64,000 bases of DNA, taken from a bacterium (lineage in GTDB: Bacteria > Verrucomicrobiota > Verrucomicrobiia > Limisphaerales > UBA11358). Each line of letters opens with the position of its first letter. Positions within the stretch are counted from its first letter, which is position 1. The DNA lies in contig JAJXXW010000044.1 in NCBI GenBank assembly GCA_021780905.1, positions 1 through 64,000 on the forward strand, written 5' to 3'. Both the position numbers and the translations under genes were made by a program. The notes below the pieces were generated by a model, which ran no database searches, was not told the DNA's origin, and saw only the letters and a list, made by a program, of their open reading frames with translations. This document shows, in pieces, positions 12,668 through 33,977 of the stretch.

Positions 12668-14785
12668 ATGAGCAACAGTTTCAGAAGCTTAACTGCCGCC
12701 CTATTTCACGGCCGTTTCGGTCTGAAGACGATGGCGATGTTCGTTTTGGTGTTGTGCCTTGCCCTACAGATAAGCTTGAGTCGGGCAGAGGAATTACGCA
12801 CGGCCGAGTCAGTGCGGGCGTTGAAAACGGAACAGGCACCGAAAACGCTGCGGGTGCGTCTGCGAGGCGTGGTGACTTTTTTCGATGAGCAGCTGTATTC
12901 CCGATTCATTCAGGACGACACGGCAGGCATCTATCTGCAGGCTTCAAACAATACACCCGCACTTTTTCCCGGGCAGTTGGTGGAAATTGAGGGTGTGACC
13001 AGCCCTGGCGAATATGCGCCCGTGGTATTGGTCGACCACGTGCAGGTCTTGGGCGAGGCTCCGTTGCCTCCGCCCAAGCCGGTGAATTACGAGCAACTGG
13101 CCACCGGTATTGAAGATAGCCAGTTCGTGGAAGTTACCGGCATTGTCCGATCGGTTCGGCCCTTGGAAAAAACCCCGTATTTTATGATTGAAATTGTCAC
13201 GGGCGGCGGGCGACTGCTGGTTTACGCGAAAAGCCTGCCAGTGAAGAAGGTTGAGGAATTGCCAGATAGCACCGTGCGCGTGCGCGGCGTTTGCTCGACG
13301 CAGTTCAATCATCAGCGCCAACTTTTCGCCATCCGCCTTATGGTGCCTCGTCCGGACGATTTCACAATCGAGGCGCCCGCCGACAATCATCCCTTCACGG
13401 CGGCGGCACATCCGATCGGCAGCTTGTTGCAATTTGCCCCGCAGAAAAGCTATGGCCACCGTGTTAAACTGGTAGGCGCGGTGATTTATTTTGATCCCGG
13501 CACAGCCTTGTTTCTTCAGGAGAACAACCACGGGGTGGAGATTCAAACGGAAGAAAATGTTCCGCTGGCCCTGGGGGATCGAGTGGAAGCGCTGGGATTC
13601 GTCGGCCAGGGCGACTATACACCGTGGCTGCAAGATGCGGTTTACCGAAAGATTTCTTCAGGACAAGCGTTGGCCCCACTGCCACTAACCACCGACGGCG
13701 CGTTGAAAGGCGACCACGATTGCCAGTTGATTCAGGTTACCGGCCGACTGATTGACCGCACCCAGCACGCCAATGAAGAATTCCTGATCTTGCAGGAAAG
13801 CAATGTTATTTTTCAGGCCAGTCTCAAACAAACCGACGGCCGCGATAATTTTATCCGGCTGGCCAACGGCAGCCGTGTGGCGGTGACGGGCGTCTGTCGG
13901 ATTGAACCTGGCAAGTGGGAAGCGGGGGAAAATTGGCGGGCAAAATCATTCAGCATCCTGCTGCGTTCGCCGGACGATGTGGTTTTGCTGCAGGCTCCAT
14001 CTTGGTGGACCCTGAAAAAGATGTTGTGGATTGCCGGTGTGTTTGCCGCAGCCACCCTGGCCGCCTTCGGCTGGATTGCGGTATTGCGTCGGCAGGTGGC
14101 AGAGCGGACGCGTGAACTGGAAATCCAAATTCAGAGGCGCCAGCTAGCCGAGCGCCGGCGCGAAATCGAGCAGGAGCGCGCGCGTGTGGCCCACGATCTG
14201 CACGATGACCTCGGTTCCCGGTTGACTGAGGTGAACATGCTTGCCTCGCTGGCCAGAAGTTCCATTACTTCGGCGACGGAAAAGGACAATTATTTGACGG
14301 AACTGAGAGAGACCGCACGGCAGATGGTGACCTCGCTGGATGAGATCGTCTGGGCGGTAAATCCACGCAACGACACCATAGCCTCATTGTCGAGCTATTT
14401 TGGTTCCTATGCGCAACGGCTATTGGATCTGGCTGGCATCGCTTGCGGCCTTGATATTGCGGAAGATTTGCCGGAGCGTTCCCTAGGAACCAAATTCCGG
14501 CAGGAGGTTTTTCTCGCTTTCAAGGAGGCGCTGAACAATATCATCCGCCATGCGGGAGCGACGCAGGTTTGGCTGCGCATTTCCGTGCGGGCCGGGAATT
14601 TGGTGGTTGAGGTGGCGGACAACGGTCGGGGATTCACTTTATTGGCCCAGACCACTGGCGGCGACGGCCTGGCCAACATGCGAGAACGCTTGAAAAGCCT
14701 GGCCGGCGGGTGCGAAGTCGTCGCCAACACGCCCAACGGAACCATCGTTCGTTTTACGGCGCCGTTGCCGGAAAGCATTCTATGA
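12668..14785 (+). CDS. Membrane sensor histidine kinase with OB-fold-like periplasmic repeats (NarL/UhpB type)
   Basis: A 705-residue sensor kinase. An N-terminal hydrophobic segment (TMAMFVLVLCLALQISLSRA) at about 22-42 leads to a periplasmic region of about 400 residues. That region contains repeated OB-fold-like units: VRLRGVVTFFDEQLYSRFIQ, then VEVTGIVRSV, then VKLVGAVIYFDPGTALFLQE, then IQVTGRLIDRT. A transmembrane helix at about 460-482 is followed by a short coiled coil. A HisKA_3 dimerisation domain carries the phospho-acceptor in VAHDLHDDLGSRL (His509). The ATPase has EALNNIIRHAG, VADNGRGF and GGDGLANMRERL. The gene overlaps the response regulator by four bases (ATGA). Being first in the glucan block, it probably senses glucan fragments; the ligand is inference. 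Confidence 0.9.
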   Translation: MSNSFRSLTAALFHGRFGLKTMAMFVLVLCLALQISLSRAEELRTAESVRALKTEQAPKTLRVRLRGVVTFFDEQLYSRFIQDDTAGIYLQASNNTPALFPGQLVEIEGVTSPGEYAPVVLVDHVQVLGEAPLPPPKPVNYEQLATGIEDSQFVEVTGIVRSVRPLEKTPYFMIEIVTGGGRLLVYAKSLPVKKVEELPDSTVRVRGVCSTQFNHQRQLFAIRLMVPRPDDFTIEAPADNHPFTAAAHPIGSLLQFAPQKSYGHRVKLVGAVIYFDPGTALFLQENNHGVEIQTEENVPLALGDRVEALGFVGQGDYTPWLQDAVYRKISSGQALAPLPLTTDGALKGDHDCQLIQVTGRLIDRTQHANEEFLILQESNVIFQASLKQTDGRDNFIRLANGSRVAVTGVCRIEPGKWEAGENWRAKSFSILLRSPDDVVLLQAPSWWTLKKMLWIAGVFAAATLAAFGWIAVLRRQVAERTRELEIQIQRRQLAERRREIEQERARVAHDLHDDLGSRLTEVNMLASLARSSITSATEKDNYLTELRETARQMVTSLDEIVWAVNPRNDTIASLSSYFGSYAQRLLDLAGIACGLDIAEDLPERSLGTKFRQEVFLAFKEALNNIIRHAGATQVWLRISVRAGNLVVEVADNGRGFTLLAQTTGGDGLANMRERLKSLAGGCEVVANTPNGTIVRFTAPLPESIL

Positions 14786-15414: not shown

Positions 15415-15612
15415 AACTAGCCGCTCGGCTAGCTGGGCAGGCGGACAAATTGGGGTAGAGTAATGGGCGTATCCAGTGAACGCAAACCTCAAACTAAACG
15501 CATGAATGCCCTTAAATTGATCCGCCGCCAGAGCGTGCCGTTGCCCGCCGGCCCATCCTTGAACCTCACCGGTTCAAATTTTTTACTCGTTCCCACCCCC
15601 AACCTAAAAATC

Positions 15613-18600
15613 ATGAAAAGACTCATTGCACGCATTGCCCTCCTCACCCTCATCGCGCTGGCGACGACCAACGCTCCGGCCGCGCTCCAGTGTTACGAGC
15701 CGTATAATTACACTTTAGGCACGCTGCCGACATCCGTGTCCGGCACTCCCAGCCAAACCACGGGTGGCGGTTTTAGCAGCGCCTATAACGGCGGCGCCGG
15801 GAGCCGGACGACGGTTGCTGGTCTGACATATCCCGGCCTGGGAGTGAACAATAACGCGTTGCAAATAAGCGGTGGCTACATCGGTGAGAATGTGGCCAGC
15901 CCAATTTCCAGCGGCACATACTACATCAGCTTTCTGATGAATATGCCGGCGACACCCACCGCCGCTTTGTCGGGTCTGGAAATGAACACCGGTGGCAATG
16001 GTGTGTTTGTGGGAATCACCGCCCTGACCAACACCACCCAGGGAGCCTTGGGCGTCAATCAACAAATCGGCTACGGTGACGGGAATGCGCTTTCCGGTTC
16101 GCCTACGACGGCGCTGGTTTATGGCAGCACCTATTTCGTCGTGCTCAAGCTGGTGGGCACTGGTTCTGGCTGGACCGCCACCTTGTGGGTGAATCCGACG
16201 GCGGGCACGGCCACGGAACCGTCGTCGCCGTGGGCTTCCTTCTCGGTGCCCCAATTTACCATCAGCGCGTGTTCCATTGTGAATCCCGGCGGTGGTAACA
16301 TGCAATTCGATGAATTGCGGATCGGCACTTCCTGGGCCGATGCCGTTGATTACAACATTTCCGCCCCAAGCGCTCCCACCGGTCTGGCGGCGGTTCCGGG
16401 GGCAAATTCTGTCAATTTGAGCTGGGTCGCTGCGAGCGGCAGCCCGGCAAGCTACAATGTGAAACGTTCGACCACGAGCGGGTCCGGCTATGTCACGGTC
16501 TCCACGGCAGGCGCCGTCACGGGAACCAACTACACTGACAATGTGGCGGGCGGCGTGACTTATTACTATGTGGTTTCGGCGGTAAATGCGGGCGGGGAGA
16601 GCCCCAATAGCTTGGAAGTTTCCGCGACGCCCACGCTCGCCGCGCCGGCGGCGCCCACGGGTTTGGTGGCGAATGCCAGCGACGGGCAGGTGTCTTTGAG
16701 CTGGGCTGCCAGCGTTGCCGCCACCGGTTACAACATCAAGCGTTCCACCAGCAGCGGAGCGGAAGTCACCATTGCCAGTGCGGGCACGACTAGCTTTACC
16801 GATTTGAACGCGGCCAATGGCACGACCTACTACTATGTGGTCTCGGCGACGAACAGCGTTGGCGAAGGGGCAAATTCTTCCGAAGTCAGCGCTTCGCCGG
16901 TCGCCTACGTTTCGGTTTACGAGCCGTTTAACTATCCGCTGGGTAATCTTACCAATAACACCCCGGGCACCGGCGCCGGTGAATCCGGCAATTGGGTGAT
17001 TGGTAATCCTGCTGCCATGCCCACGATCGTGAGTCCGGGCTTGACTTATTCCGGTCTGACGACGGGCAATAATGCTTATCACCACACGGCCACCGGCAAT
17101 CAGAATTATATCAATCTCGCCCCCGCCAGCCAATTATCGAGCGGCACCAAATACATCAGCTTCCTGATGCAGAGCAGCGGCAATTCCGGCGGCGATACGG
17201 TGGGCGTCTATTTCAAAGGCAACAATGCCACCAGTCTGTTCGCCGGTTTCCATGTTCCCTACAGCGCCGATCTGACCGGCTTCTCGTTGGGCAGCGTCAA
17301 CAGCACCAGCCTGGGTGCCGCCACCACCCTGGGGAGCATCATTAATATCAGCAACACCGTGGTGCATCTGATTTTGATTAGAATTGATTTCAACACGTCC
17401 GGCGTCAACGACACGGTCAGTCTCTGGGTTGATCCGCCGGCCGGCACCAATTCACCCGGAGCGGCCGCCAACAGCATCGTAAGCACTTTTGATGTGGGAA
17501 CCATCACGGCATTCGGCGTTAATGTCACCGGCGGCTATGCGGCCAAGGTGGACGAGTTTCGCACTGGCAACACCTATGGCAGCGTCGTGAGTGCGCCCAA
17601 TCCGACGGTGGTGACCACGGTGGCTGTTTCCACCAATCTGGCCACCACGGTAAGTTGGACGGCCTACAGCACCAATGTCTATCAGGTGCAAAGTTCACCC
17701 GACAACGCCACTTGGAGCAACGTGGGCAGCCAGATTATGGGTGGCACTCCCAACTCGATTGTTGATCCTGCGAATGCTCCTGATTACCGGGTTTTGGAAT
17801 ACTACCCGGTCATTACAGAAGTGGTCGCCAATGGCGGGTTTGATTTTGACACAGGTTTGACGCCCGACACGGCGCAGAACTGGCTCAGCGTGCAAAGCCA
17901 GCCGCCGGTGTGGATCAACACCGATGGCCACACCGCTCCGGGCTGTATGGATTTGGCGGTGACGAATGCAACGGCCACGGCCAACGGCTCGGAAATCCAA
18001 CAGAACACCCTGCTCCAAGGGAATCCCGTGACGCCCGGGGAGAGCTACAACTTTTCCTTCTGGGCCAAGCAAATCAGGATGGTCGGCGGCTATGTCCAGC
18101 AATACAATGTTCAATGGTTGTCTAACTCGGTGTTTTTGAGCCAGAGCGGTGTCACAAGCTTCACCGGCGGCAGTGGCACCTGGGCGCAAATTACGCAGAA
18201 CGGTCTCGTGGCACCGGCCGGTGCCAACACCGCCTTGATTCAAATTCTGGGTGTCACCGGCGCGACGGCGGGCGATGCGGGCGAGGTGCTCATTGACGAC
18301 GTATCGCTTTCCAACACCTCATTGACTGGGGGACCCAATATCCTGGTGCCGGCGGTTCAAAAAAGCATGACCTTCACGGCGACGATTCTGACCAACGGGA
18401 TCACCGCCGCCGCCTCTACCGGAACCGTCACCTTCAAGACCAATAGCATGCAGTTGAGCGTGAATTCAGTGGTCAGCGGCGTTACCAGCAGTCTCGGCAC
18501 GAGCATCAACCCGCCTTACACCGTAACCGCCGTCTATTCCGGTGACGGCACTTACCTCGGCAGCACCGGCACCTTGACGGTCGGCGGCATCAGTCCGAGC

Positions 18601-18822
18601 GGCCCGGGAACCATCACCAACAGCGTGTCTGGCAGCACCCTGACCCTCACCTGGCCGGCAGGCCAAGGCTGGCGACTCGTGGCCCAGACCAACAGCCTGT
18701 CCACGGGGCTGAATCCCAGCCCCAGTGCCTGGTTCACGGTGCCGGGCGGAACGGATGGCAGCAACAGCATTGTGGTTGACAAGAACAACGCGAACGTGTT
18801 TTACCGGCTGGTTTCGCCGTAA
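15613..18822 (+). CDS. Large secreted protein with LamG-like and fibronectin type III domains
   Basis: A 1069-residue exported protein. The start at 15613 gives a good signal peptide (KRLIARIALLTLIALATTNAPA) and the open frame above it carries no signal. Two LamG-like halves begin YEPYNYTLGTL (near 30) and YEPFNYPLGNL (near 435). Between them lie two FN3 domains at about 255-345 and 345-430 (PTGLAAVPGANSVNLSW, YYYVVSATNSVGEGANSSE). The C-terminal part has another sandwich domain, a Big3-like repeat (YTVTAVYSGDGTYLGSTG), and a tail ending NANVFYRLVSP that recurs in other exported proteins of this window. It is probably a cell-surface glucan-binding or scaffold protein, inferred from its place in the locus. 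No catalytic motif was seen. Confidence 0.85.
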   Translation: MKRLIARIALLTLIALATTNAPAALQCYEPYNYTLGTLPTSVSGTPSQTTGGGFSSAYNGGAGSRTTVAGLTYPGLGVNNNALQISGGYIGENVASPISSGTYYISFLMNMPATPTAALSGLEMNTGGNGVFVGITALTNTTQGALGVNQQIGYGDGNALSGSPTTALVYGSTYFVVLKLVGTGSGWTATLWVNPTAGTATEPSSPWASFSVPQFTISACSIVNPGGGNMQFDELRIGTSWADAVDYNISAPSAPTGLAAVPGANSVNLSWVAASGSPASYNVKRSTTSGSGYVTVSTAGAVTGTNYTDNVAGGVTYYYVVSAVNAGGESPNSLEVSATPTLAAPAAPTGLVANASDGQVSLSWAASVAATGYNIKRSTSSGAEVTIASAGTTSFTDLNAANGTTYYYVVSATNSVGEGANSSEVSASPVAYVSVYEPFNYPLGNLTNNTPGTGAGESGNWVIGNPAAMPTIVSPGLTYSGLTTGNNAYHHTATGNQNYINLAPASQLSSGTKYISFLMQSSGNSGGDTVGVYFKGNNATSLFAGFHVPYSADLTGFSLGSVNSTSLGAATTLGSIINISNTVVHLILIRIDFNTSGVNDTVSLWVDPPAGTNSPGAAANSIVSTFDVGTITAFGVNVTGGYAAKVDEFRTGNTYGSVVSAPNPTVVTTVAVSTNLATTVSWTAYSTNVYQVQSSPDNATWSNVGSQIMGGTPNSIVDPANAPDYRVLEYYPVITEVVANGGFDFDTGLTPDTAQNWLSVQSQPPVWINTDGHTAPGCMDLAVTNATATANGSEIQQNTLLQGNPVTPGESYNFSFWAKQIRMVGGYVQQYNVQWLSNSVFLSQSGVTSFTGGSGTWAQITQNGLVAPAGANTALIQILGVTGATAGDAGEVLIDDVSLSNTSLTGGPNILVPAVQKSMTFTATILTNGITAAASTGTVTFKTNSMQLSVNSVVSGVTSSLGTSINPPYTVTAVYSGDGTYLGSTGTLTVGGISPSGPGTITNSVSGSTLTLTWPAGQGWRLVAQTNSLSTGLNPSPSAWFTVPGGTDGSNSIVVDKNNANVFYRLVSP

Positions 18823-18866
18823 CCACCAAATTGAATTGGCTCGCTTCGGCTTGATGATGTTCGGCG

Positions 18867-18892
18867 GAGCCGGCTCAAACCTGGGCCGGCTC
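18867..18892 (+). promoter_or_regulatory. Hairpin just before the prepilin-like gene
   Basis: GAGCCGGC at 18867-18874 pairs with GCCGGCTC at 18885-18892 around a 10-base loop. It ends two bases before an ATG at 18895, so translation from that ATG would be hindered. This favours the in-frame ATG at 18922. It may also serve as a weak terminator for the preceding gene. Confidence 0.4.
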
Positions 18893-18921
18893 CAATGAAA
18901 ACGAAAACAAAAATCCCGAAT

Positions 18922-19746
18922 ATGAAATTTAAAACCAATGCCAGCCGGGGATTCACCTTGATTGAATTGCTCGTGGTCATTGCCATCATTGCCATACTCG
19001 CCGCGATGCTTTTGCCGGCTTTAGGCAAGGCCAAGGCCAAGGCGCTGGGTATCAGTTGCATGAGCAACCTGAAACAACTCCAACTCGGCTGGACCATGTA
19101 TTCGGGTGATAATGAAGATAAACTGGTTCGTAACGGACAGGAGCCGGGAGGGGCCACCGTTCCGATTAATGCCTCATTCCTTTCCGGTGGCGCCAATGCC
19201 GGCTGGGTGCTCGGGCGGGTGGACGCGGCGGCAGGCAACTCGGCCACCAACATGGCGCTCATTCAAAACGGACTGCTCTATCCGATGGTGAACAGTTTTA
19301 AAGTCTATAAATGTCCAGCGGATCACAAACAGTTTAAAGGCAGCGATACGGTTCGCAGCATGTCCATGAATGCCTGGCTGAATTCCATCACAAGTTGGAA
19401 TGACATTATGGGTTACAACGGTGCCACGCGGTTGCGCGACTTTCGTAAACAGGGTGATATCAATAATCCCTCCCCCTCATTGTGCTGGGTTTTTATCGAT
19501 GAGAACCCCAACACCATCAATGACGGCTGGTTTGTGGCGGACCCGAACAAACCGAACCTGTGGTGGGATTGTCCGGCCAGCTATCATAACAATGCCGGCG
19601 GACTTTCTTTTGCCGATGGTCACGCGGAAATAAAAGTCTGGCGGGATGCGAACATGATAAAAGCCACCGCCAACGATGTTCCCCGGGATCCCAGTTCGGA
19701 TGATTTGTCCTGGTTGACATCCCGCAGCACGTCGCTGATGCAATAA
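18922..19746 (+). CDS. Prepilin-like secreted protein with H-X9-DG domain
   Basis: A 274-residue protein with a type IV prepilin N-terminus: a short basic leader ([10 protein letters not shown]) and then [20 protein letters not shown], with cleavage expected between Gly and Phe. The rest matches the DUF1559-like family abundant in Planctomycetes and Verrucomicrobia. The C-terminal H-X9-DG signature is present ([12 protein letters not shown] near residue 228). The start at 18922 gives the normal leader length; an ATG at 18895 would add nine residues and sits right behind a hairpin. Such proteins are exported and form pseudopilus-like structures. Its presence among glucan enzymes suggests a surface role, which is inference. 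A paralogue lies at 54694-55560. Confidence 0.88.
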
Positions 19747-19901: not shown

Positions 19902-20516
19902 ATGCAAACCAAACATCATTTAATCCGCAGCCTGGTCGCCGGATGCGTCCTGGTTGGCTTTGGCCCCAGTCTCCAGCCGCTCTGCGCGGAAGGAATGCCG
20001 CCCGCCACCACCGTTAAATTGCCTTTCATTGTTTTCGACGAAAAAGGCGGTTCCAACCATCACTACATTCCTTCTGGCTGGATGGGCAACTCCAAGGCCA
20101 TCAAAATGGACGACGGCTGCACCACTAATCCGCATGGCGGCAATACTTGTCTGCGCTTTGAATACTCCGCCACGGACAATTGGGCCGGCATCGTCTGGCA
20201 GGACCCCGCCAACGATTGGGGCGATCAAAACGGAGGCTGGAATCTCACCGGCACGAAAAAACTGAAATTCTGGGCGCGTGGCGAAAAGGGCGATGAGGTG
20301 GTCAGTTTTAAGTTTGGCATCCTCGGCTCGGATAAAAAATTCTCCGATAGCGCGAACGGCGAAATGGCAGATGTCAAACTCACGAAAAATTGGACGGAAT
20401 ACTCCATTGATTTGGCCGGTAAAGACTTGTCTCGCATCAAGACTGGTTTCTGCTGGTCGCTCGCCGGCCAAGGCTCACCGGTGGTATTTTATCTCGACGA
20501 CATCCGGTTTGAATAA
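19902..20516 (+). CDS. Secreted stand-alone carbohydrate-binding-like protein
   Basis: A 204-residue exported protein. The signal peptide covers about 1-29 (LIRSLVAGCVLVGFGPSLQPLCAEG). The mature part is one jelly-roll-like domain containing NHHYIPSGWMGNSKAIKMDD, GIVWQDPANDWGDQNGGWN, LKFWARGEKGDEVVSFKFG and a C-terminal FYLDDIRFE. The same module forms the C-terminus of the next gene (20543-22351), so the two belong together. The aromatic-rich GW and WNLTG motifs suggest sugar binding, as in galactose-binding-like CBMs. No catalytic residues are apparent. A substrate of beta-1,3-glucan is inferred from the neighbours. Confidence 0.8.
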   Translation: MQTKHHLIRSLVAGCVLVGFGPSLQPLCAEGMPPATTVKLPFIVFDEKGGSNHHYIPSGWMGNSKAIKMDDGCTTNPHGGNTCLRFEYSATDNWAGIVWQDPANDWGDQNGGWNLTGTKKLKFWARGEKGDEVVSFKFGILGSDKKFSDSANGEMADVKLTKNWTEYSIDLAGKDLSRIKTGFCWSLAGQGSPVVFYLDDIRFE

Positions 20517-20542
20517 AAGTTGTCCAAGCTGGTTTACAAACA

Positions 20543-22351
20543 ATGAAACCCTTTTTGGCGGTCGTAAAAACCATTCTGGCTTGCGGACTGGCCGTGCTGG
20601 CACTGCCTGCTCTGGCCGCGCCGGTCAAGGTGGAACTGGTTCGCACCGCCGATGGCTGGCAGCTGCACCGCGATGGCAAACCGTTTTTTGTGAAAGGCGC
20701 GGGCGGCACTGAGCGGCTGGATTTGCTCGCCGCGGCCGGCGCGAATTCCGTCCGCACCTGGGGCGCCGATGGCCTTGCGCCGCTGCTCGACGAGGCGCAC
20801 AAAAACGGACTCACCGTCACGGTCGGCATCTGGCTGCACCACGAAGGCGGCCCGGAAAAATTCAGTTACGATAATCCCGAGCTGCTGAAGCAGCAGTTGG
20901 ATGCCGTGCGTCAAACGGTTTTGCGTTACAAAGATCACCCCGCCGTTTTAATGTGGGGCATCGGCAACGAAATGGAAGGTTACCGGGATGGCGGCAAAAA
21001 GGCGATTTGGAATAACGTCAACGACGCCGCCAAGCTCGCCAAGGCACTGGACCCGAATCATCCCGTGATGACGGTGATTGCCGAAATTGGCGCCAAACGC
21101 ATCCCGAGCATTAACCAGTTTTGTCCCGATGTGGACATCGTTGGCATCAACAGCTACGCCGGTGCGTCCAGCATCGGGACGCGCTACGCGGCGCTGAATC
21201 CACAAAAGCCTTACATCATCACCGAATTTGGGCCGCCCGGGGCGTGGGAGGGCGACAATTCAGCATGGGGCGCGCCCATCGAGCCGACCAGCCCGGAAAA
21301 AGCGGGCTGGTATCGCCGCGCTTATCTCGGTTCCATTGATCACAAACCGTGGTGTCTCGGCTCCTACGCTTTCTTGTGGGGTCACAAGCAGGAGGCTACC
21401 GCCACCTGGTTCGGTATGTTTTTGCCTGACGGAACAAAAGTTAACGCGGTTGATACCATGACCGAACTCTGGTCTGGCCAGCCGGCAAAAAATCTTTGCC
21501 CGGCCATCGAAAGCCTCAAGTTCGAAGGCGCGAACGATCTCAGGCCGGGGCAAACCCTCAAGGTCAATTTGGCAACCCGCGATCCGGTTGGTCGTCCCGT
21601 CAAAGTGCGCTGGGTGGTGCAGCCGGAGCAAATTAAAACCGGCATCGGCGGCCAGGAAGAACCGGTCTTGCCGGAGTTGCCGGCGGCCATCGTCGGCAGC
21701 GACGACCTGCATTGCGAAATCACCGCCCCGAAAAACGAAGGCGGCTATCGCGTGTTCGCCTACGTCAACAACGGCGTTGGTTCCAGCGTGGCGAATGTGC
21801 CGTTTCATGTGCATCTACAGGATGAACAAGTGCCGCCCGGCAAAGCGGCCGCGCTGCCGTTTTGCATTTACGAAAACGGCTCCAGCCCCCAAAACCATTA
21901 CATTCCGTCCGGCTGGATGGGCAAAACGTCCGCCATCAAAATGAATTTGGGCTGGGTGGAAAATCCGCACAGCGCGCCGAGCTGCATGCAGTTTCAATTC
22001 AACTCCGCCGCCGACTGGGGCGGTATCGTCTGGCAGGATCCGGCGGATGACTGGGGCGATCGCGATGGCGGTTGGAATCTTACCGGGGCAAAGAAACTGG
22101 TTTTCTGGGCGCGCGGCGAGCAGGGCGGCGAAGTGGTTTCGTTCAAATTCGGCGTGCTCGGCCGCGAGAAGAATTTTTTTGATTCCGCCAGCGGCGGACT
22201 CGCAGGCGTCACGCTCACGAAGACATGGAAGGAATATACCATTGACCTGACGAACCAAAATCTGGCGCGCATCAAGACCGGCTTCGGCTGGTCCCTCGCC
22301 GGCCAGGGCCACCCGGTCAGGTTTTATCTGGACGACATCCGCTTTGAATAA
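20543..22351 (+). CDS. Secreted clan GH-A glycoside hydrolase with C-terminal binding module
   Basis: A 602-residue exported hydrolase. After a signal peptide (LAVVKTILACGLAVLALPALA), residues 30-325 form a TIM barrel of the GH2-C/GH5 type. The candidate acid/base is Glu143 in GIGNEME and the nucleophile Glu228 in IITEFGPPG, both placed as in clan GH-A. PFFVKGAGG near the start and SYAFLWG near the end are also typical. An Ig-like domain (about 330-430) and a jelly-roll module (about 440-602) follow. The module repeats that of the preceding gene: NHYIPSGWMG, IVWQDPADDWGD, FYLDDIRFE. The exact GH family is uncertain; GH5-like or GH158-like endo-beta-1,3-glucanase activity would suit the locus. 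The next gene starts three bases after the stop. Confidence 0.82.
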   Translation: MKPFLAVVKTILACGLAVLALPALAAPVKVELVRTADGWQLHRDGKPFFVKGAGGTERLDLLAAAGANSVRTWGADGLAPLLDEAHKNGLTVTVGIWLHHEGGPEKFSYDNPELLKQQLDAVRQTVLRYKDHPAVLMWGIGNEMEGYRDGGKKAIWNNVNDAAKLAKALDPNHPVMTVIAEIGAKRIPSINQFCPDVDIVGINSYAGASSIGTRYAALNPQKPYIITEFGPPGAWEGDNSAWGAPIEPTSPEKAGWYRRAYLGSIDHKPWCLGSYAFLWGHKQEATATWFGMFLPDGTKVNAVDTMTELWSGQPAKNLCPAIESLKFEGANDLRPGQTLKVNLATRDPVGRPVKVRWVVQPEQIKTGIGGQEEPVLPELPAAIVGSDDLHCEITAPKNEGGYRVFAYVNNGVGSSVANVPFHVHLQDEQVPPGKAAALPFCIYENGSSPQNHYIPSGWMGKTSAIKMNLGWVENPHSAPSCMQFQFNSAADWGGIVWQDPADDWGDRDGGWNLTGAKKLVFWARGEQGGEVVSFKFGVLGREKNFFDSASGGLAGVTLTKTWKEYTIDLTNQNLARIKTGFGWSLAGQGHPVRFYLDDIRFE

Positions 22352-22353
22352 AA

Positions 22354-25850: not shown

Positions 25851-27275
25851 ATGAACACCGCAACCAAAGTCATGAAATTGTCCTTCGCCGAGAAATTCGG
25901 CTATGGGCTGGGGGACACGGCAAGTAATTTCGTCTGGGCGCTAATGATGAATTTCATCATGTTTTACTACACGGACATTTTTGGCATCACGGCCGCCGCC
26001 GCCGGCACGATGCTCTTGTTTGCGCGCAGCACGGACGGCGTGGTGGACTTTTTTATCGGCGCGATGGCGGATCGCACAAAATCAAAGTGGGGCCGGTTCC
26101 GTCCGTATCTCGTCTGGCTGTGCGTGCCGCTGGCGGTGGTGTTTGTGCTCGCATTCACGACGCCGGCGGTCAGTCCGGCGGGAAAAATCGTCTGGGCCTG
26201 GGTCACTTACAATCTGATGATGTTGCTTTATTCCGCGATCAACATTCCCTACGGCGCACTGTCGGGCGTGATGACCGACGATCCATTGGAGCGCACGAGT
26301 TTGAATTCCTACCGTATGTCACTGGCGCAAATCGGCGGCATTGTGGCCAATTCCAGCTTCATGGTGCTGATTGTCAAATTCGGCGGCGCCAACCAGCAGC
26401 TTGGTGCGCAGCGGACGGTGCTGCTGTTCAGCGCCATGGCCATCGTGCTGTTTCTCATTTCATTTTTAACCACAAAAGAGCGCATTCATCCCCCGGCGAA
26501 CCAGCACACCAGACTGACCCAGGATTTGAAAACCCTCTTCCTCAATCGTCACTGGATCATGATGTTTGTCATCGGTATCGTGAATATCACCCTGGCCGTC
26601 GTGCGCGGCACGGCAGGAATTTATTACCTCAAAAATTATCTGAATTGGGACGGCGGCCAGATCGGCACCTGGTTTTTGGTCAGCGGACTGGCGATGATCT
26701 TGGGCGCGATGATGACGCGGTTTGCCGTGGAAGCCATCGGCAAAAAGGCGGCGTTCATGACGAGCATGGTGGCGGTGGCGCTGACGGCAATTCCATTTTA
26801 CTGGCTTCAACCGGATCAGACCGCTTGGATATTCATGTTTCTGATTCTCGGCATGATCAGCGCGGGTATCAACGCGACGCTGTTCTGGGCGCTGGTGGCC
26901 GACACGGCGGATTTTCAAGAGTGGAAATACCGGACCCGCACAACGGGCGTCGTGTTTTCCGCGACGACTTGCGCGCAAAAAGCCGGCATGGGCATTGGCG
27001 CGGCGTTTGCGGGTTTTCTGATTTCGGCCTTTGGCTATGTGCCCAATGCCGCGCAATCCACCGAAGCCATCCGCGGCATTTTACTGCTCAACAGCCTGAT
27101 TCCGGCCGCTGGATTACTGGTGTTGGCGGCCATTTTCAGCCTCTACGGCTTGGATGAGAAGATTTGTAAAACCATGCGCGAAGACTTGGCGCAACGCCGC
27201 GAACAACCGTTGCCAAGCTCACCCTCCCCTGAATCCATCCCGGCTACCGGAGCGGAATCGCTGGCGGGCGCTTAA
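25851..27275 (+). CDS. GPH-family (MelB-like) sugar:cation symporter
   Basis: A 474-residue inner-membrane transporter with about 12 helices. The start at 25851 begins a typical N-terminus (KLSFAEKFGYGLGDTASNF). The family signature between helices 2 and 3 is clear: MADRTKSKWGRFRPYLVW near 70-87. FWALVADTADFQEWKYRTRT near 340-360 is another GPH hallmark. The Asp residues of DGVVDFF and MADRT are those used for cation and sugar binding in MelB. In this locus it would import glucan oligosaccharides for the cytosolic phosphorylase just upstream. The substrate is inference. A basic/Pro-rich C-terminal tail of about 35 residues is unremarkable. Confidence 0.9.
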   Translation: MNTATKVMKLSFAEKFGYGLGDTASNFVWALMMNFIMFYYTDIFGITAAAAGTMLLFARSTDGVVDFFIGAMADRTKSKWGRFRPYLVWLCVPLAVVFVLAFTTPAVSPAGKIVWAWVTYNLMMLLYSAINIPYGALSGVMTDDPLERTSLNSYRMSLAQIGGIVANSSFMVLIVKFGGANQQLGAQRTVLLFSAMAIVLFLISFLTTKERIHPPANQHTRLTQDLKTLFLNRHWIMMFVIGIVNITLAVVRGTAGIYYLKNYLNWDGGQIGTWFLVSGLAMILGAMMTRFAVEAIGKKAAFMTSMVAVALTAIPFYWLQPDQTAWIFMFLILGMISAGINATLFWALVADTADFQEWKYRTRTTGVVFSATTCAQKAGMGIGAAFAGFLISAFGYVPNAAQSTEAIRGILLLNSLIPAAGLLVLAAIFSLYGLDEKICKTMREDLAQRREQPLPSSPSPESIPATGAESLAGA

Positions 27276-27284
27276 AATACTTCG

Positions 27285-28358
27285 ATGAAAAATTATCAAG
27301 CCGCCTCAAGCTGGCGAATGCTCGTTGGCATCGCCGCGGTCTGGCTGGGGGGATGGGTCTGCCAGGCATCCGCAACCAGCCCATCCGCTGAGCCCCGCGT
27401 TTCTCTCCAGCAGCAAAAATCGGATCTGTTGGCGGGCTTGTCGCGCGGCCTTTGCTATTCCGGCTTTCGTCATGGCCAGCATCCTGATCGTGGCGGCGGC
27501 GCGGTGAATCCAACTGACCAGCAGATTTTTGAAGACCTGCAGCTTTTAAAGCGGGATGGGAATTTCCAAATGATCCGGCTCTATGATTCGCGGACGAATT
27601 CGGAAGTCATCCTGCGCCTGATCCGTGAGCACCATCTGAAATTAAAAGTTCTTCTCGGTGCGTGGTTGAGCGCGGAAATGAGCAATCCCAATTGCACCTG
27701 GCTACAGCCGATTCCGGCGGAAACACTGGCAGCAAATCGTCGCTTGAACGCGATCGAAGTGCAAAACCTCATCCGGTTGGCGAATGAGTATCGGGATACA
27801 GTGGTGGCCGTCGCCGTTGGCAATGAGGCCTTGGTCAGCTGGAACGATCACCTGGTGCCGGTGGCCGCAGTGATCGCGTATGTTCGGGAGGTCAAGTCAG
27901 CGGTGAGGCAGCCGGTGACGGTTTGTGACAATTATGACTGGTGGTCGCATCACGGTGCGGCGCTGGCATCGGAATTGGATTTTATTTCTGTGCACACCTA
28001 TCCGCAATGGGAGAAGAAGGACATTGACGAGGCGATGGCCTATACGATTGCGAATTTGCAAGCCGTCCATCAGGCTTTGCCCCACAGTCGCATCGTAATC
28101 ACCGAAGCTGGCTGGGCGACGGTCGCCCGGGAATTTGGCCGCCGGGCCAGCGAGGAAAACCAGCGCAAGTATTATCACGACTTGTTTGCCTGGACGGAAA
28201 AGATGAATCTCACGACTTTCTTTTTCGAGGCCTTCGACGAAGATTGGAAGGGGGATGGCGGCGACCCCCTGGGTGCCGAAAAACATTGGGGTCTGTTCAC
28301 GGTGGATCGAAAGGCCAAGTTGGCCATGCAGAAGGGGTATCCCGATTTGAAAAACTAA
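27285..28358 (+). CDS. Secreted GH17 beta-1,3-glucanase/glucanosyltransferase
   Basis: A 357-residue exported protein. The signal peptide ends near residue 30 (GIAAVWLGGWVCQASA). The remainder is a GH17 TIM barrel: GLCYSGFRHGQHP near 54, FQMIRLYDSR near 94, VAVAVGNEAL with the acid/base Glu181, ISVHTYPQWE near 234, and the nucleophile Glu274 in IVITEAGWAT. GH17 enzymes cleave or transglycosylate beta-1,3-glucans with retention. The length is that of bacterial GH17 proteins. The gene follows the transporter by nine bases, so it is likely in the same operon. Confidence 0.9.
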   Translation: MKNYQAASSWRMLVGIAAVWLGGWVCQASATSPSAEPRVSLQQQKSDLLAGLSRGLCYSGFRHGQHPDRGGGAVNPTDQQIFEDLQLLKRDGNFQMIRLYDSRTNSEVILRLIREHHLKLKVLLGAWLSAEMSNPNCTWLQPIPAETLAANRRLNAIEVQNLIRLANEYRDTVVAVAVGNEALVSWNDHLVPVAAVIAYVREVKSAVRQPVTVCDNYDWWSHHGAALASELDFISVHTYPQWEKKDIDEAMAYTIANLQAVHQALPHSRIVITEAGWATVAREFGRRASEENQRKYYHDLFAWTEKMNLTTFFFEAFDEDWKGDGGDPLGAEKHWGLFTVDRKAKLAMQKGYPDLKN

Positions 28359-28370
28359 AAACTAGACTAT

Positions 28371-29768
28371 ATGAAAAATAAATATGCCACGTTACTGATG
28401 TTTGCTTCGCTGGGTGTTTGCGGAGGCTGGTTGCCTTTGCTGGCGGCGGATGAACCATTAATCACCACGGTGGCCGAGATCCGCGCTTTGTCCGCGACGG
28501 ACGCGGCGAAGCATCATCCCGTCAAGTTGCGCGGCGTGGTCACGTTTTACGATGACGGACTGTTTTCGCGCTTCCTGCAGGATGAGACGGGCGGGATTTA
28601 CCTGCAGGCAACCAATACCCTCGCATTGCAAGCGGGACAAATGGTCGAGGTGGAGGGCGTGACCAGCTCGGGCGAGTTTGCACCCGTTGTGGTGGCGGTC
28701 TCGGTGAAAGTCACAGGCGAGGGAAAAATCCCCGCCGCCAAACCAGTCAGTCTCGAACGCCTTTTAAGCGGCGCGGAAGACAGCCAAATGGTCGAAATTA
28801 CCGGCAATGTCCGGGCCGCACGTTTTGAGGCGTTGTCGGGAAATCATTTCATCGACATCGTAGCCGCCGGCGAGCGTTTCACCGTGATCACGAAACAACT
28901 GCCGGTGGCCAGGCCGGACGATCTTTTGGACGCCACGGTGCGGGTTCGTGGTGTCTGCTCGACCCTGTTCAACCACCAGCGCCAGTTGTTCGGTTTCCGG
29001 CTGCTGGTCCCCACTGCCGACGGATTGATTGTTGAGCAGGCCGCCCCCCAAAATCCCTTTGCGGTTGCCGCGCAGCCGATGGACTGCCTGTTGCAATTTA
29101 CACCGCAGGGCAACTTGGGGCATCGCGTGAAAGTGACTGGCACCGTGGTGTATTTTCAACCGGGCAGCGCTGTTTTTATTCAGGACGGAAACCATGGACT
29201 CCGTTGTCAAACCTTGCTGCGTGAGCCTGTGCAGTTGGGGGATCAGATGGAAGTCCTTGGCACGCCGGCCAAAGGTGAATACACCCCGATTTTGGAAGAC
29301 GCGATTTATCGGAAAGTTGGCGCCGGCGCGGAGCCGAAGGCGGACGTGGTGGATCTCAATGACATGTTAACCGGTGTGTATGACTGCCGTCTGGTTCAGA
29401 TTTCTGCGAAAGTGCTGGAGCGGGTGGATCGCGGGGTTAATCAATTCCTCCTGCTGGAGGCTGGCGATTTTATTTTTCAAGCGTATTTGCCGCAGGGAGC
29501 CATTGGTGACCGGCTCACCGGACTGGTGAACGGCAGCCAAGTCATGGTCACGGGAATTTGCCTGATTGAGCGCGGCAACAGTTGGCAGGCCGGCAAGGAC
29601 TGGCGGGCGAAATCGTTCCGTCTGCTGATGCGCTCGCCCCAGGACATTGTGCTCGTGCAGGCACCGTCCCAATGGTCCTATGAAATGCTGTTGGGCATCG
29701 CGGGGGCGATTGAAGTGGTTGTCCTGGTGGTGATTCTTGGTGTCTGGCGGAAAAAAACGCAACTCTAG
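28371..29768 (+). CDS. Kinase-less paralogue of the glucan-locus sensor (OB-fold-like repeats plus one membrane helix)
   Basis: A 465-residue protein that matches the periplasmic part of the histidine kinase at 12668 along its whole length. Compare VKLRGVVTFYDDGLFSRFLQ, VRVRGVCSTLFNHQRQLFGF, VKVTGTVVYFQPGSAVFIQD and EYTPILEDAIYRK. A signal peptide (LMFASLGVCGGWLPLLAADE) is present, and a single C-terminal helix (MLLGIAGAIEVVVLVVILGVW) is followed only by RKKTQL. No HisKA or ATPase domain follows in any frame; the next 97 bases lead to a different secreted protein. It is a clean protein rather than a visible frameshift product. It could bind the same ligand and modulate or titrate the kinase. 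Function is inference; family membership is seen directly. Confidence 0.85.
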   Translation: MKNKYATLLMFASLGVCGGWLPLLAADEPLITTVAEIRALSATDAAKHHPVKLRGVVTFYDDGLFSRFLQDETGGIYLQATNTLALQAGQMVEVEGVTSSGEFAPVVVAVSVKVTGEGKIPAAKPVSLERLLSGAEDSQMVEITGNVRAARFEALSGNHFIDIVAAGERFTVITKQLPVARPDDLLDATVRVRGVCSTLFNHQRQLFGFRLLVPTADGLIVEQAAPQNPFAVAAQPMDCLLQFTPQGNLGHRVKVTGTVVYFQPGSAVFIQDGNHGLRCQTLLREPVQLGDQMEVLGTPAKGEYTPILEDAIYRKVGAGAEPKADVVDLNDMLTGVYDCRLVQISAKVLERVDRGVNQFLLLEAGDFIFQAYLPQGAIGDRLTGLVNGSQVMVTGICLIERGNSWQAGKDWRAKSFRLLMRSPQDIVLVQAPSQWSYEMLLGIAGAIEVVVLVVILGVWRKKTQL

Positions 29769-29865
29769 CAAATGGCCAAGGTTGCCAGCCCATGAAAGAC
29801 AAATCCGCTTTCCGGCTGTGGCGGATTGTCAGCGCGTCGTTGCCCGGTCGGAAAGACCAATAGCC

Positions 29866-31413
29866 ATGTCACGCCATCCCTCCTCAACCAACGGCAGGGT
29901 GGGCCATCTCGCCATTGCACTGATGGTTGTGGCTTTCGCCGCGTTGTCCAATCTCTGCCATGCGAGCCTGAATGCTTACGAGCCGTTTAATTACTCCTCG
30001 CTCGCCAACGGCACCAACGCTACCGCCGCTGGCTTCACCGGCCAATGGACGTGTGGGTCAACTCCTTCGGTCGTCTCCGGGCTGACCTACACCGGCCTGC
30101 CGGTGGCGGACAGCGCTTTAAGTTCGGGCAGTGCCCGGCAATTCGTGAGTCTCGCAAACTCGCTCTCCACGGGCACCAAGTGGATCAGCTTTCTGTTTAA
30201 AACCAGCGCCGCCGATCCCGGCGCAAATATTAACGGTGTTTACTTTCCCAATGGTGGCACCGGTCTCTGGTTTGGCTTCGGGTTGAGTCCCTACTCTCCG
30301 ACTCAGGGACAGTTGGGTATCGGCTCCATGAACACCGCTGGCACCGCTGCTCTGGGAGCCGCCAGCCTCGCGCAATTGGGCTTGGGAACCTATGGCACTA
30401 CTTATTTGGTCGCAATCCAAATCCAATTCAACACCTCGGGCACCAACGATACCGTCACCGTTTATTTGAATCCGGTGGCCAATCAAGCCACGCCCGGGGT
30501 GGCCGCCGCCGGCTCCGCTGCTGCCTTTGATGTCGGAACCATTACCGGAGTGGGGCTGAATGTTCAAGGTGCTGGGAGTATCATGGTGGATGAGATTCGC
30601 GTCGGTGACACCTACGGTGATGTCGTCGGCTATGTCAATATACCTCCGAACGCTCCCACTGGACTGAATGCCACGTCGGGGACAAATCTGGTTTCCTTAA
30701 GTTGGACTGCCGCCACCGGCAGTCCGACCGGCTACAACGTGAAGCGTTCCACCGTCACCGGTGGTCCTTATACGAACATAGGCATAGCCGCCGCTTCGAG
30801 CGTGAACTACAACGATTCCGTCCTGGGAGGCCAGACGTATTATTATGTGGTTTCCGCAGTGAACGGAGCCGGCGAGAGCACCGATAGTTTGCCGGTTTCA
30901 GCCACGCCAATTTTGGGATCACCGGCCGCCCCCGCCGGTTTGGCGACAACCGCCGGCAACGCGCAGGTGACTTTGAGCTGGGCTGCCAGTCCCTTTGCGA
31001 CCAGCTACACCGTGAAACGTGCCACCGTTTTCGCCGGACCCTACTCCCCGGTCGGCGCTACGACCGCTCCCACGGTGACATACATCGATTCCAGCGGACT
31101 CAACAACGGCACGACCTACTATTATGTCGTCTCGGCGACGGGCGCGGGTGGCCCCAGTGCTGACAGTTCGCCGGTAAGCGCCACCCCCGTCGGTCCTCTG
31201 CCGTTTTTCATCAGTATCACACCCGGGGTGAACATAACTTGGTTTGCCAGCAACGGTGTCACCTATCAGGTTCAATGGGCCAGCGCGCTGTCCGGCCCCA
31301 ACGCCATCTGGAATAACTTGGGCGGTGCCATCACCGGCAATGGCAGCACCAACTCGGTGTTCGATCCCGTTGGGACCCCACATAATTTTTTTCACGTTTT
31401 GTCGATCCAATGA
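29866..31413 (+). CDS. Secreted LamG-like/FN3 protein
   Basis: A 515-residue exported protein related to the large protein at 15613. The start at 29866 leads into a signal peptide (HLAIALMVVAFAALSNLCHA); the frame above it is spurious. Residues 35-245 form a LamG-like sandwich starting YEPFNYSSLANG. Two FN3 domains follow at about 250-340 and 340-430 (PTGLNATSGTNLVSLSW, AGLATTAGNAQVTLSW). The last 60 residues are the same tail module seen on GH81 (TYQVQWASA, then GNGSTNSVFDPVG, then NFFHVLSIQ). No catalytic motif is visible. It probably binds polysaccharide or the cell surface. Its stop overlaps the GH81 start by four bases. Confidence 0.85.
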   Translation: MSRHPSSTNGRVGHLAIALMVVAFAALSNLCHASLNAYEPFNYSSLANGTNATAAGFTGQWTCGSTPSVVSGLTYTGLPVADSALSSGSARQFVSLANSLSTGTKWISFLFKTSAADPGANINGVYFPNGGTGLWFGFGLSPYSPTQGQLGIGSMNTAGTAALGAASLAQLGLGTYGTTYLVAIQIQFNTSGTNDTVTVYLNPVANQATPGVAAAGSAAAFDVGTITGVGLNVQGAGSIMVDEIRVGDTYGDVVGYVNIPPNAPTGLNATSGTNLVSLSWTAATGSPTGYNVKRSTVTGGPYTNIGIAAASSVNYNDSVLGGQTYYYVVSAVNGAGESTDSLPVSATPILGSPAAPAGLATTAGNAQVTLSWAASPFATSYTVKRATVFAGPYSPVGATTAPTVTYIDSSGLNNGTTYYYVVSATGAGGPSADSSPVSATPVGPLPFFISITPGVNITWFASNGVTYQVQWASALSGPNAIWNNLGGAITGNGSTNSVFDPVGTPHNFFHVLSIQ

Positions 31414-33977
31414 TCGGGTGGAATAACAATATGAAAATCCTTGTCTCTATTTTGGCCGTAATCCTCGTGGTGGAATGGGCTTCCGCACAATCGGTTGTCC
31501 CCGTCGGCGCCGGTTCGTATGCGTCGTTTCCTCCGTCCCAAGCCAACGCCGGGTCCCTGCCGACGACGCCGCCCACTTATGTGGTCACAAACTACGGTCA
31601 GCCGATGCCGAGTAATAAATGGTGGACCGACCTGATCAACAGCCAATACGCCGGCAATATGTGGGCCCAGCCGTTGACCGTTTCCGCAGATGCCCAGGGT
31701 ATCAACCTTTACAATCCCAACAGTTGGGTTCCCTCCGGGACCAATCCACAAATGCCTCTGGACAGTCCCGTCACAATTCATGGCCAGGGCTTTTCTCCGG
31801 CGGATGCGCGGGCTTTAAGTTGGGGCGATTGGACGGTGGCCTTTCGTATGCAGCAAGCCGCGAATACCTTCATGGATGTCACGTTCGGTCACGGCTTACC
31901 TTCCGTGTGGGTCGAATTCACCGGCGTGCAACCCCAAATCGCGTTTCCTTCCGGTGGGGCCACTTTCTTCGATGACAACGGGAGCAGCGTCTCATTTCCG
32001 CTGACGGGCAACCATTTTGGCGTGGCCTACGGTTCGGGTCGCTACTGGGGTGTATTTGCGCCGGACGGGACGCAGTTCACTCTTAGTAACGGCGTGGTAA
32101 ATGTAACCTTTGCCAGCACGAATACTTACCTCGTCGTGAGCGCTTTGCCGGCCAAGACCAACCTTGCGTATTTCGCCCAATATGCCTACGCCGTGCCCCG
32201 TGGCAGTCAGATGAACTGGGTCTATGATCCGGCGGCGGGTAATGTCACGACGATCTGGCATCTGGCGACGCAAATTTTGAAAGGCACCGAACCGCGCGTC
32301 ATTCAGGGTTGGCTCGCGCATCATTGGCGCGACACGACGAATAATCTGGTGTTCAACGGAATGAATTATTCGAGTGTGCGCGGCTCCCTGAAATGCGCCA
32401 CCGGCACGGACTTTGAATTTACTTACCCATTCAGCGGCTTCCCGCCCACTTTGCCCCCGCCCGTCCCGACGGGCCGCTCGAACGATTACGTTCCGGCGCG
32501 CATGAATGCCTATCTCACCAGCGTGGCGGCCAACACCAACATTGCGGTGGATACCTACTGGGGTGGCAAAGACCTGCTGCGCTACGCCCAGCACATGGCC
32601 ATGGCGCATGACATGGGCCGGCCGGAATTCACCACGCTGCATAATACGCTGGCGGCGGGACTGCAGAACTGGTTTACCTACACCCCCGGCGAATCCAGCT
32701 ACTATTTTGCCGCGTATCCGGCTTGGAAGGCGCTCGTGGGTTTCCAAGCCAGCTATGGTTCCCAACAATTCAACGACCAGCATTTCCACTACGGCTATAT
32801 CATCCATGCCGCCGCACTGCTGGGGTTGTATGACACTAATTTCCTGACTAATTACGGGGCGATGGCCAAACTGGTGGCCAAGGATTTCGCGAACTGGGAC
32901 CGGAACGACACGAACTTTGCTTATTTCCGGACGTTTGACATTTGGGCCGGACACTCCCAGGCGAGCGGTTACCCCGACGCCAACCGGGGTGGCAACCAGG
33001 AATCCAGCAGCGAAGCCATGAATTCCTGGGTGGGACTCTTCTTGCTGGGCGCTGCGCTGGGTGACGCCCCGATGCGGGCGGCGGGGGCGATGGGTTATGT
33101 GATGGAATCGGCGGCCGTGCGGGAATACTGGTTCAACGAGCACGCCGATGTCTGGCCTGCGGTTTACACCCGTTCCTGCGTCGGTATCCTGTGGGATAAT
33201 GGCCAGGATTTTCAAACCTACTTCGGCCTTAATCCGATTTATGTCCACGGAATTCAGTGGTTGCCCATTTCCCCGGGGATGAGCTATCTCGCGCAAAATC
33301 CCGTTTTTGCCCAGCAACAGTTTAACAATATGCTCGCCGAACAGTTGTCCGTCGTGGGAAGTAATTCCATCAGTTCGATGGGTTCGCAGTGGGGCAATTA
33401 TGCGCTTTGGTATGCGCTCCAGTTCAATCCTGACTATGTGGCCGCGCAGATGGATCAGTTATATGCCAGCAATGATCCCGTCGCCACCGATCCGATATAC
33501 GCGGGCTCGACTTACTATTTCACTCACGCCTACCGAAATCTCGGCGCGATTCAATGGCAGTTTCATTTGAGCGTGCCCACCAGTGCCGTCTATTACAACA
33601 CCAACACCGCGCAGTTTACCTTGGTTGCCTACAACCCGCTGAACACCACCCAGCTTGCGACCATCTATAGCAACAACGTCGCTGTCGGCAGCATGACTTT
33701 GACGCCCAGCGGTCTGACTACCCAAAACCTGGCGACCATCAACCCCGTGACCCAAGTCACAAATCTTGTTCCGTCCCAAGTGGAGCGTGGCGTGGCGATT
33801 GCCTGGCCCACGATGCCCAACAGCAATTACACCGTTCAAGTGGCCGCTAACTTGGCGGGGTCGGCCTCGTGGACAAACTGGGTTGCTCCGATCGTGGGTG
33901 ACGGGACGACCAACCATCTATTTGATCCGACAGGGAGCAATTGGCAGAAATTTTACCGTGTCCAGCAGACACCATAG
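31410..33977 (+). CDS. Secreted GH81 endo-beta-1,3-glucanase
   Basis: An 855-residue exported GH81 enzyme that hydrolyses internal beta-1,3-glucosidic bonds with inversion. The ATG at 31410 overlaps the previous stop. A second ATG at 31431 starts exactly at the signal peptide (MKILVSILAVILVVEWASAQ) with GGTGG upstream and may be the true start. Family motifs are PMPSNKWWTDLI near 67, DVTFGHGLPSVWVEF near 155, FNDQHFHYGYII near 452 with the presumed acid Asp, and GGNQESSSEAMNSW near 528 with the catalytic Glu pair. The C-terminus (about 795-855) carries the YTVQVAANL/WQKFYRVQQTP tail module shared with neighbouring proteins. This gene makes the beta-1,3-glucan assignment of the locus strong. 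Confidence 0.93.
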   Translation: MIGWNNNMKILVSILAVILVVEWASAQSVVPVGAGSYASFPPSQANAGSLPTTPPTYVVTNYGQPMPSNKWWTDLINSQYAGNMWAQPLTVSADAQGINLYNPNSWVPSGTNPQMPLDSPVTIHGQGFSPADARALSWGDWTVAFRMQQAANTFMDVTFGHGLPSVWVEFTGVQPQIAFPSGGATFFDDNGSSVSFPLTGNHFGVAYGSGRYWGVFAPDGTQFTLSNGVVNVTFASTNTYLVVSALPAKTNLAYFAQYAYAVPRGSQMNWVYDPAAGNVTTIWHLATQILKGTEPRVIQGWLAHHWRDTTNNLVFNGMNYSSVRGSLKCATGTDFEFTYPFSGFPPTLPPPVPTGRSNDYVPARMNAYLTSVAANTNIAVDTYWGGKDLLRYAQHMAMAHDMGRPEFTTLHNTLAAGLQNWFTYTPGESSYYFAAYPAWKALVGFQASYGSQQFNDQHFHYGYIIHAAALLGLYDTNFLTNYGAMAKLVAKDFANWDRNDTNFAYFRTFDIWAGHSQASGYPDANRGGNQESSSEAMNSWVGLFLLGAALGDAPMRAAGAMGYVMESAAVREYWFNEHADVWPAVYTRSCVGILWDNGQDFQTYFGLNPIYVHGIQWLPISPGMSYLAQNPVFAQQQFNNMLAEQLSVVGSNSISSMGSQWGNYALWYALQFNPDYVAAQMDQLYASNDPVATDPIYAGSTYYFTHAYRNLGAIQWQFHLSVPTSAVYYNTNTAQFTLVAYNPLNTTQLATIYSNNVAVGSMTLTPSGLTTQNLATINPVTQVTNLVPSQVERGVAIAWPTMPNSNYTVQVAANLAGSASWTNWVAPIVGDGTTNHLFDPTGSNWQKFYRVQQTP

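Follow-up and report, generated by a model that had tools for sequence, protein, structure and literature searches.

Among the loci that come closest to the one reported here are the laminarin PULs of marine bacteria and the beta-1,3-glucan PULs of Bacteroides. In the accessible portions of their descriptions (PMC10108472; for the Formosa PULs, PMC6246565), the former share with our locus a GH149 enzyme together with GH17 and sometimes GH158; a Bacteroidota MAG, for example, has a laminarin PUL of the composition GH149-GH0-GH30_1-GH17, and laminarin PULs are described as carrying GH16_3, GH30_1 or GH3 (both PMC10108472). The Bacteroides PULs share a GH158 glucanase and glycan-binding proteins, according to the part of that paper available (PMC7157763). 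The alginate clusters of Verruconatronum, as far as the excerpted account goes (PMC13274419), resemble our locus in lacking SusCD and in including a pseudopilin gene, and differ from it in their substrate, alginate, and in a TonB-dependent system that the organism is said to have. The absence of SusCD from verrucomicrobial glycan loci has already been stated in print, in the accessible text of PMC12175321, and a partially available study calls the Verrucomicrobia known laminarin degraders and assigns the GH149 reads in its data to other phyla (PMC11919646). Among the matches listed in our literature search, which covered titles and abstract starts and few subscription papers, there was no account of the locus type described below, nor of glycan loci with a kinase-less OB-fold sensor.

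The window (the whole stretch of DNA analysed, 64,000 nucleotides) corresponds to contig C59. Its assembly totals 3,886,955 bases over 96 contigs, with a completeness of 90.56% and a contamination of 6.65%. Open reading frames and a start-codon check place twelve genes, all on the plus strand, between positions 12668 and 33977, exactly where a first-pass annotation had put a block of twelve co-directional genes. Judged from homology, the block as a whole very probably serves a Limisphaerales bacterium in the utilisation of beta-1,3-glucan. Its genes are, in order:

12668-14785, plus strand: sensor histidine kinase with a tandem OB-fold-like extracytoplasmic sensor, a TM helix, and HisKA_3 and HATPase_c domains (Pfam; sensor family)
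14782-15414, plus strand: response regulator of the NarL/LuxR type (Response_reg E 2.7e-25, GerE E 1.8e-18)
15613-18822, plus strand: fn3-repeat protein with a CBM_4_9-like stretch below cut-off, likely start 15613 (Pfam; start codon)
18895-19746, plus strand: pseudopilin-like protein, N_methyl (PF07963 E 3.7e-9; TIGR02532 over cut-off)
19902-20516, plus strand: single binding-module-like protein (61% identity to the C-terminal module of the GH158)
20543-22351, plus strand: GH158-type hydrolase with a C-terminal module at about 21827-22348 (9oro E 2.7e-91; 6pal E 1.1e-60)
22354-25830, plus strand: predicted GH149 beta-1,3-glucan phosphorylase, with TTG at 22354 as a tentative start (NF058639; 6hq6)
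25851-27275, plus strand: GPH-family (MFS_2) cation:glycoside symporter, start counted by hand from the translation (PF13347 E 1e-91; TIGR00792 362 bits against 231)
27285-28358, plus strand: GH17 hydrolase or transglycosylase (PF00332 33.6 bits against 28.2; 6fcg E 6e-26; 4wtp E 6e-16)
28371-29768, plus strand: kinase-less sensor with an N-terminal hydrophobic stretch, predicted tandem OB folds, a C-terminal TM helix and a 7-residue basic tail (homology; structural model)
29866-31413, plus strand: fn3-repeat protein, likely start 29866 (Pfam fn3; start codon)
31410-33977, plus strand: GH81 endo-beta-1,3-glucanase-type enzyme (PF17652 E 1e-51; 6fop E 9e-85; 5t4a E 2.5e-64)

The genes are tightly packed: 4-base overlaps join the kinase to the regulator and the second fn3 gene to GH81, gaps of 2-26 bases separate the genes running from the single binding-module-like protein through GH158, GH149, the symporter and GH17 to the kinase-less sensor, and longer gaps of 72-198 bases lie 5' of the first fn3 gene, the pseudopilin gene, the single-module gene and the second fn3 gene. 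Upstream of the block, profile matches identify an FAD synthetase/riboflavin kinase and a sigma-70 factor. We end the block at 33977 because the next gene downstream, ALAD/HemB (34201-35187), is on the minus strand; a frame at 34075-35316 was considered as a further member and rejected, as it overlaps ALAD/HemB on the opposite strand. Elsewhere in the window we noted a full-length MISL RNA (RF03079) at 60694-61443 on the plus strand (598 bits; gathering score 274.6), and, by eye, a protein resembling REP-associated (RAYT-like) transposases at 55830-56546 on the plus strand. Between 52001 and 54000 the G+C content falls to 0.48 after 0.66, and the same stretch encodes two secreted-looking proteins, one with a PEP-CTERM-like tail (by eye).

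The enzyme families proposed in the first-pass annotation were confirmed and in two cases narrowed; the GH81 and GH17 candidates in particular fall into their own families rather than unrelated ones. For GH81, PF17652 scores 176.7 bits against a cut-off of 25.6, solved GH81 enzymes match most of the protein, and the NDxHFHYGY and NQxSSSEAM regions, which are catalytic in GH81, align to both 6fop, whose alignment starts at residue 33, and 5t4a. The N-terminal GH81 model, PF03639, had no match in the genome, but 14 controls gave none either, and a misreading of this gene as GH81 is rejected by the PF17652 and PDB matches. The GH17 match is modest: PF00332 (E 4e-8) aligns over profile positions 222-301 only, in its C-terminal part, while both catalytic glutamates, in VGNEA and ITEAGW, align to 6fcg. 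Since its matches are this solved GH17 and the glucanosyltransferase 4wtp, we name the enzyme a hydrolase or transglycosylase; the GH17 family includes both. What had been described as a clan GH-A hydrolase is a GH158: 9oro aligns over residues 26-423, including the NE and TEFG motifs, whose glutamates are presumably the acid/base and nucleophile, as in clan GH-A. Similarly, the phosphorylase, for which GH94, GH149 and GH161 had all been named, is by sequence a GH149: it scores 1403 bits against the 1150-bit cut-off of the NF058639 equivalog, over profile positions 5-1133 of 1134 (i.e., its full length), and matches the solved GH149 6hq6 at E 8e-294, as opposed to E 7e-13 for a GH161. That the enzyme phosphorolyses beta-1,3-glucan oligosaccharides is a prediction from its family. 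The GPH symporter and the HisKA_3 kinase with its LuxR-type regulator had likewise been read correctly. By eye, the N termini of GH158, GH17 and GH81 look secreted and that of GH149 looks cytosolic.

The proposed beta-1,3-glucan substrate thus gains support from homology, with GH81, GH17, GH158 and GH149 standing together in one co-directional block. One could argue that the true target is a different polymer, perhaps a glucan of mixed linkage or of fungal walls, in which these families attack no more than the beta-1,3 stretches; CAZy families bound a substrate only loosely, and the fn3 and CBM-like proteins have no family assignment. We consider this improbable, because all four enzyme families point to beta-1,3 linkages and a search of the block with family profiles assigned no further glycoside hydrolase family.

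Searches of the whole assembly (91% complete; controls matched) gave no match to SusD, to the TonB-receptor barrel or Plug, or to GH16 and GH30, and one partial match to GH3, in a 327-aa frame on C78. Among further beta-1,3-glucanase families, the search of the assembly covered GH16 and GH30. Because the assembly is 91% complete, and because the PF03639 search shows that a divergent domain can be missed, we treat these absences as suggestive rather than as proof. They agree with the earlier statement that the locus works without SusC/SusD. Its description as complete-looking was overstated in that no outer-membrane importer was identified. The absence of GH16 and GH30 in the presence of GH81 leans toward, and suggests, a substrate that is mainly linear beta-1,3-glucan rather than branched laminarin. 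Compared with the marine laminarin PULs, then, the assembly lacks matches to SusD, TonB receptor, GH16 and GH30, and the window adds GH81 and two-component control with a tandem OB-fold sensor. Compared with the GH158 PULs of Bacteroides, which are reportedly SusCD-type loci, the window has no SusCD, includes a phosphorylase within the block, and belongs to an assembly whose GH3 is only partial.

GH149 turned up in 8 of the 146 genomes sampled from the order and in 12 of 49 genomes of the genus (own genome included in both), and from the 19 genomes with GH149 we compared 18 loci, leaving out a 49-position fragment in G071. Within these 18 loci, several of which are cut by contig ends, a GH158 homologue occurs in 17, the symporter in 11, GH17 in 5, GH81 in 4 and the sensor family in 7. 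We also inspected named GH149 loci, taking the best 80 of at least 569 relatives: the window's GH17 has matches in 42 of these 80, its symporter in 38 (11 at 100 bits or more) and its GH158 in 25 (12 at 100 bits or more), while its GH81 has none within the fetched flanks, and the sensor is found in two, L023 and L090, which we take to be the G113 and G177 loci among the 18 of the order. The beta-1,3-glucan core of the locus is therefore of a known kind, GH149 near GH158 or GH17 being a widespread laminarin-type module.

The block is conserved in two further genomes. In the congener G267 it is kept, with kinase and regulator, on one contig (L134, L208, L143), with several fn3-like matches between regulator and pseudopilin; in G273 its counterparts lie on two separate contigs, the enzymes and kinase-less sensor on one (L130) and the kinase and regulator on the other (L142), with no pseudopilin match in these two contig stretches. 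The four enzymes and the symporter are 75-89% identical in protein sequence between the window and these two genomes, and the kinase is 81% identical in G273 and 69% in G267. The 108 bases 5' of the kinase gene (12560-12667) are strongly alike in the window and G273 only; this stretch may hold regulatory sequence, or it may be the tail of a short gene. The upstream regions that were compared show no obvious common regulator site, and a promoter scan found 7 promoter-like sites where 7.7 were expected by chance. Control of the block by the kinase and regulator is putative.

Glucan binding, which the first-pass annotation ascribed to surface proteins of the block, is putative for the two fn3-repeat proteins and for the single binding-module-like protein. 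The latter matches no Pfam family, has a choice_anch_J match below cut-off, and in a PDB sequence search gave one chance-level match. GH149 loci of Woeseiaceae and Steroidobacteraceae contain a module 41-42% identical to it, either adjacent to a GH158-like gene or as the last part of one (L037, 16450-18270, and L082, 16399-16920, both on the minus strand), and weaker matches occur in flavobacterial GH149 loci. Pseudopilins adjoin kinase-less copies of the sensor in four other loci (L133, L135, L136, L137) and also some sensor kinases (L150, L160, L187, L188). The window encodes another protein that resembles pseudopilins at 54694-55584 on the minus strand; by eye it has a methylation-type motif at the N terminus and an FADGH stretch. 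In Verruconatronum, the available text reports a pulG-like pseudopilin gene among the alginate-cluster genes and a further pseudopilin, outside the cluster, that is over-expressed on alginate (PMC13274419).

The less ordinary part of the locus is the second copy of the kinase's sensor part, which comes without a signalling enzyme; the first-pass annotation mentions neither this feature nor the pseudopilin. The protein encoded at 28371-29768 is 48% identical to the extracytoplasmic half of the kinase, has no Pfam kinase domain, and ends seven residues after its TM helix. In its own genome, where 8 candidates were scored (E 0.001 or better), these two proteins are the only members of the family. 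A model built from four sequences (mean pLDDT 79, pTM 0.61) predicts repeated sets of beta strands followed by a final helix, and the best of the 50 Foldseek matches listed are OB-fold proteins. Because whole-chain TM-scores on the query are low (0.13-0.24), we apply the OB-fold reading to the domains and not to their arrangement. A PDB sequence search found no relative of solved structure.

The sensor family is common in the order, with matches at E 1e-20 or better in at least 149 of 293 sampled genomes (up to 5 candidates scored per genome). For comparison we took copies with their flanks, namely the listed ones down to 415 bits (two at 410-415 bits were left out), three lower-scoring copies added for their short frames (G283:C28, G265:C206, G133:C235), and the L090 kinase, which entered the sample through its GH149. 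Of the resulting 64 copies, 44 are clear kinases, 5 are longer frames that we count as diverged kinases, and 15 have no kinase. One of the 15, L189, was first counted as kinase-less and then dropped, as another frame shows PAS/HisKA-like text, leaving 14. A TM helix followed by a short tail is found in 12 of the 15; L139 and L140 lack the helix, and the remaining copy is L189. The kinase-less copies come from four sampled families of the order (f1, f51, f62, f9).

In a tree of the 64 sensor domains, whose root is undefined, the window's kinase-less copy is one of ten, drawn from families f1, f51 and f62, that form a clade free of kinases (support 100/96); a further kinase-less copy, L135, is from f9. 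The nearest rows outside the ten-copy clade are longer kinases, L149 and L150, in a relative of which we read PAS-like text, and the window's own kinase belongs to a different clade, of shorter kinases. A recent local duplication of the neighbouring kinase, which we considered as the origin of the kinase-less gene, is rejected by this separation into different clades. The labels kinase and kinase-less require at least 5 changes on the tree, L189 included, and the kinase has therefore been lost (or gained, given the undefined root) more than once.

The kinase-less gene is under purifying selection: comparing the window with L130 and L134 gives it a dN/dS of 0.12 and 0.11, ratios that are rough given a dS near 1 (0.5-2 over all these comparisons). 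In the same comparisons the enzymes and symporter give 0.06-0.14 and the second fn3 protein 0.21-0.22, and the kinase, compared with L142 and L143, gives 0.15 and 0.16. We weighed the idea that the protein is what remains of a former kinase, neutral or in decay, since related kinases exist and truncation is a simple event. We find this very hard to credit: decay is rejected by a dN/dS as low as that of the block's enzymes, and the well-supported ten-copy kinase-less clade, which spans three families, speaks against a remnant as well.

Within the sample, kinase-less copies are associated with glycan genes. GH149 or GH158 lies in the flank of 7 of the 14 kinase-less copies, at distances of 0.4-5.2 kb, as compared with 6 of the 49 kinase copies (Fisher p 0.005); counting the three window-type orthologues once gives 5 of 12 (p 0.03). 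Without the hand-picked short frames and L090 the figures are 7 of 12 and 5 of 48 (p 0.001); if the orthologues are again counted once, the kinase-less figure becomes 5 of 10 (p 0.009). Because the copies were chosen by similarity to the window, flanks were unequal and kinship was ignored, we regard the association as a lead only. Viewed from the enzyme side, the seven GH149 loci of the order that contain the sensor family comprise five with a kinase-less copy (G000, G273, G267, G263, G113) and two with a kinase (G177, G302). In L131 a kinase-less sensor is directly beside a GH106 alpha-L-rhamnosidase (8243-11269 and 11354-12772), and L132 encodes a protein whose start resembles that of this GH106; beside the kinase-less copies of L139 and L140 no glycan gene was recognised from the gene starts by eye. 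Given L131, L139 and L140, this type of sensor is not restricted to beta-1,3-glucan. OB-fold kinases are also found 3-8 kb from a match to the window's GH81 in three loci (L166 in G089, L156 in G225, L174 in G281).

What the kinase-less protein does can be approached through known kinase-free partners. UhpB-type HisKA_3 kinases work with a separate receptor, UhpC. VtrA/VtrC is described, in the accessible part of PMC9214523, as a co-component system. By analogy with these pairs, a kinase-free membrane protein could feed a signal to a partner; the window's protein differs from UhpC and from VtrA/VtrC in being a homologue of the kinase's own sensor, and the partnership is putative. The excerpted account of the Verruconatronum alginate clusters mentions no kinase-less sensor (PMC13274419). 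We tentatively favor a role as co-sensor or modulator of the kinase, to which we give a little less than an even chance.

The protein may instead have no part in signalling and, anchored in the membrane, bind glycan in the periplasm and pass oligosaccharides on to the symporter. Its gene has GH17 on one side and the second fn3 gene on the other, near the uptake and enzyme genes and away from the kinase gene, and in L014 and L138 a kinase-less copy is near GH158/GH149 while the stretch fetched there contains no kinase. On the other hand, the protein falls among kinases in the tree, the TM helix and short tail are kept in most copies, and we know of no need of GPH symporters for a binding protein. 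A purely binding role is accordingly possible, if somewhat doubtful to us.

With the kinase-less protein taken as co-sensor or modulator, the locus might work as follows. The exported-looking GH81, GH158 and GH17 would work outside the inner membrane, cutting or reshaping beta-1,3-glucan of a chiefly linear type, with the binding-module-like proteins and possibly a pseudopilin-based apparatus assisting the attack. The GPH symporter would carry short oligosaccharides over the inner membrane, where the cytosolic GH149 is expected, from its family, to split them with phosphate and release glucose-1-phosphate. The tandem OB-fold kinase would read periplasmic glycan and activate the LuxR-type regulator, which would turn the block on, and the kinase-less twin, in the same membrane, would bind either glycan or the kinase's sensor. 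More broadly, Limisphaerales may repeatedly have made split sensors, in which kinase-less OB-fold proteins in glycan loci bind glycan and, within the same membrane, gate a distinct OB-fold kinase of different descent, the two sharing the sensing; we offer this as a conjecture that is rather less likely to be right than wrong.

With its well-supported substrate class, symporter, phosphorylase and dedicated sensors, this compact locus makes the question of glycan import in Verrucomicrobiota testable. The kinase-less sensors lead to the hypothesis that a sensor without a kinase is a repeated, selected part of the glycan loci of this order. If the split-sensor reading is true, it would be a SusCD-free counterpart to the hybrid two-component control of PULs.
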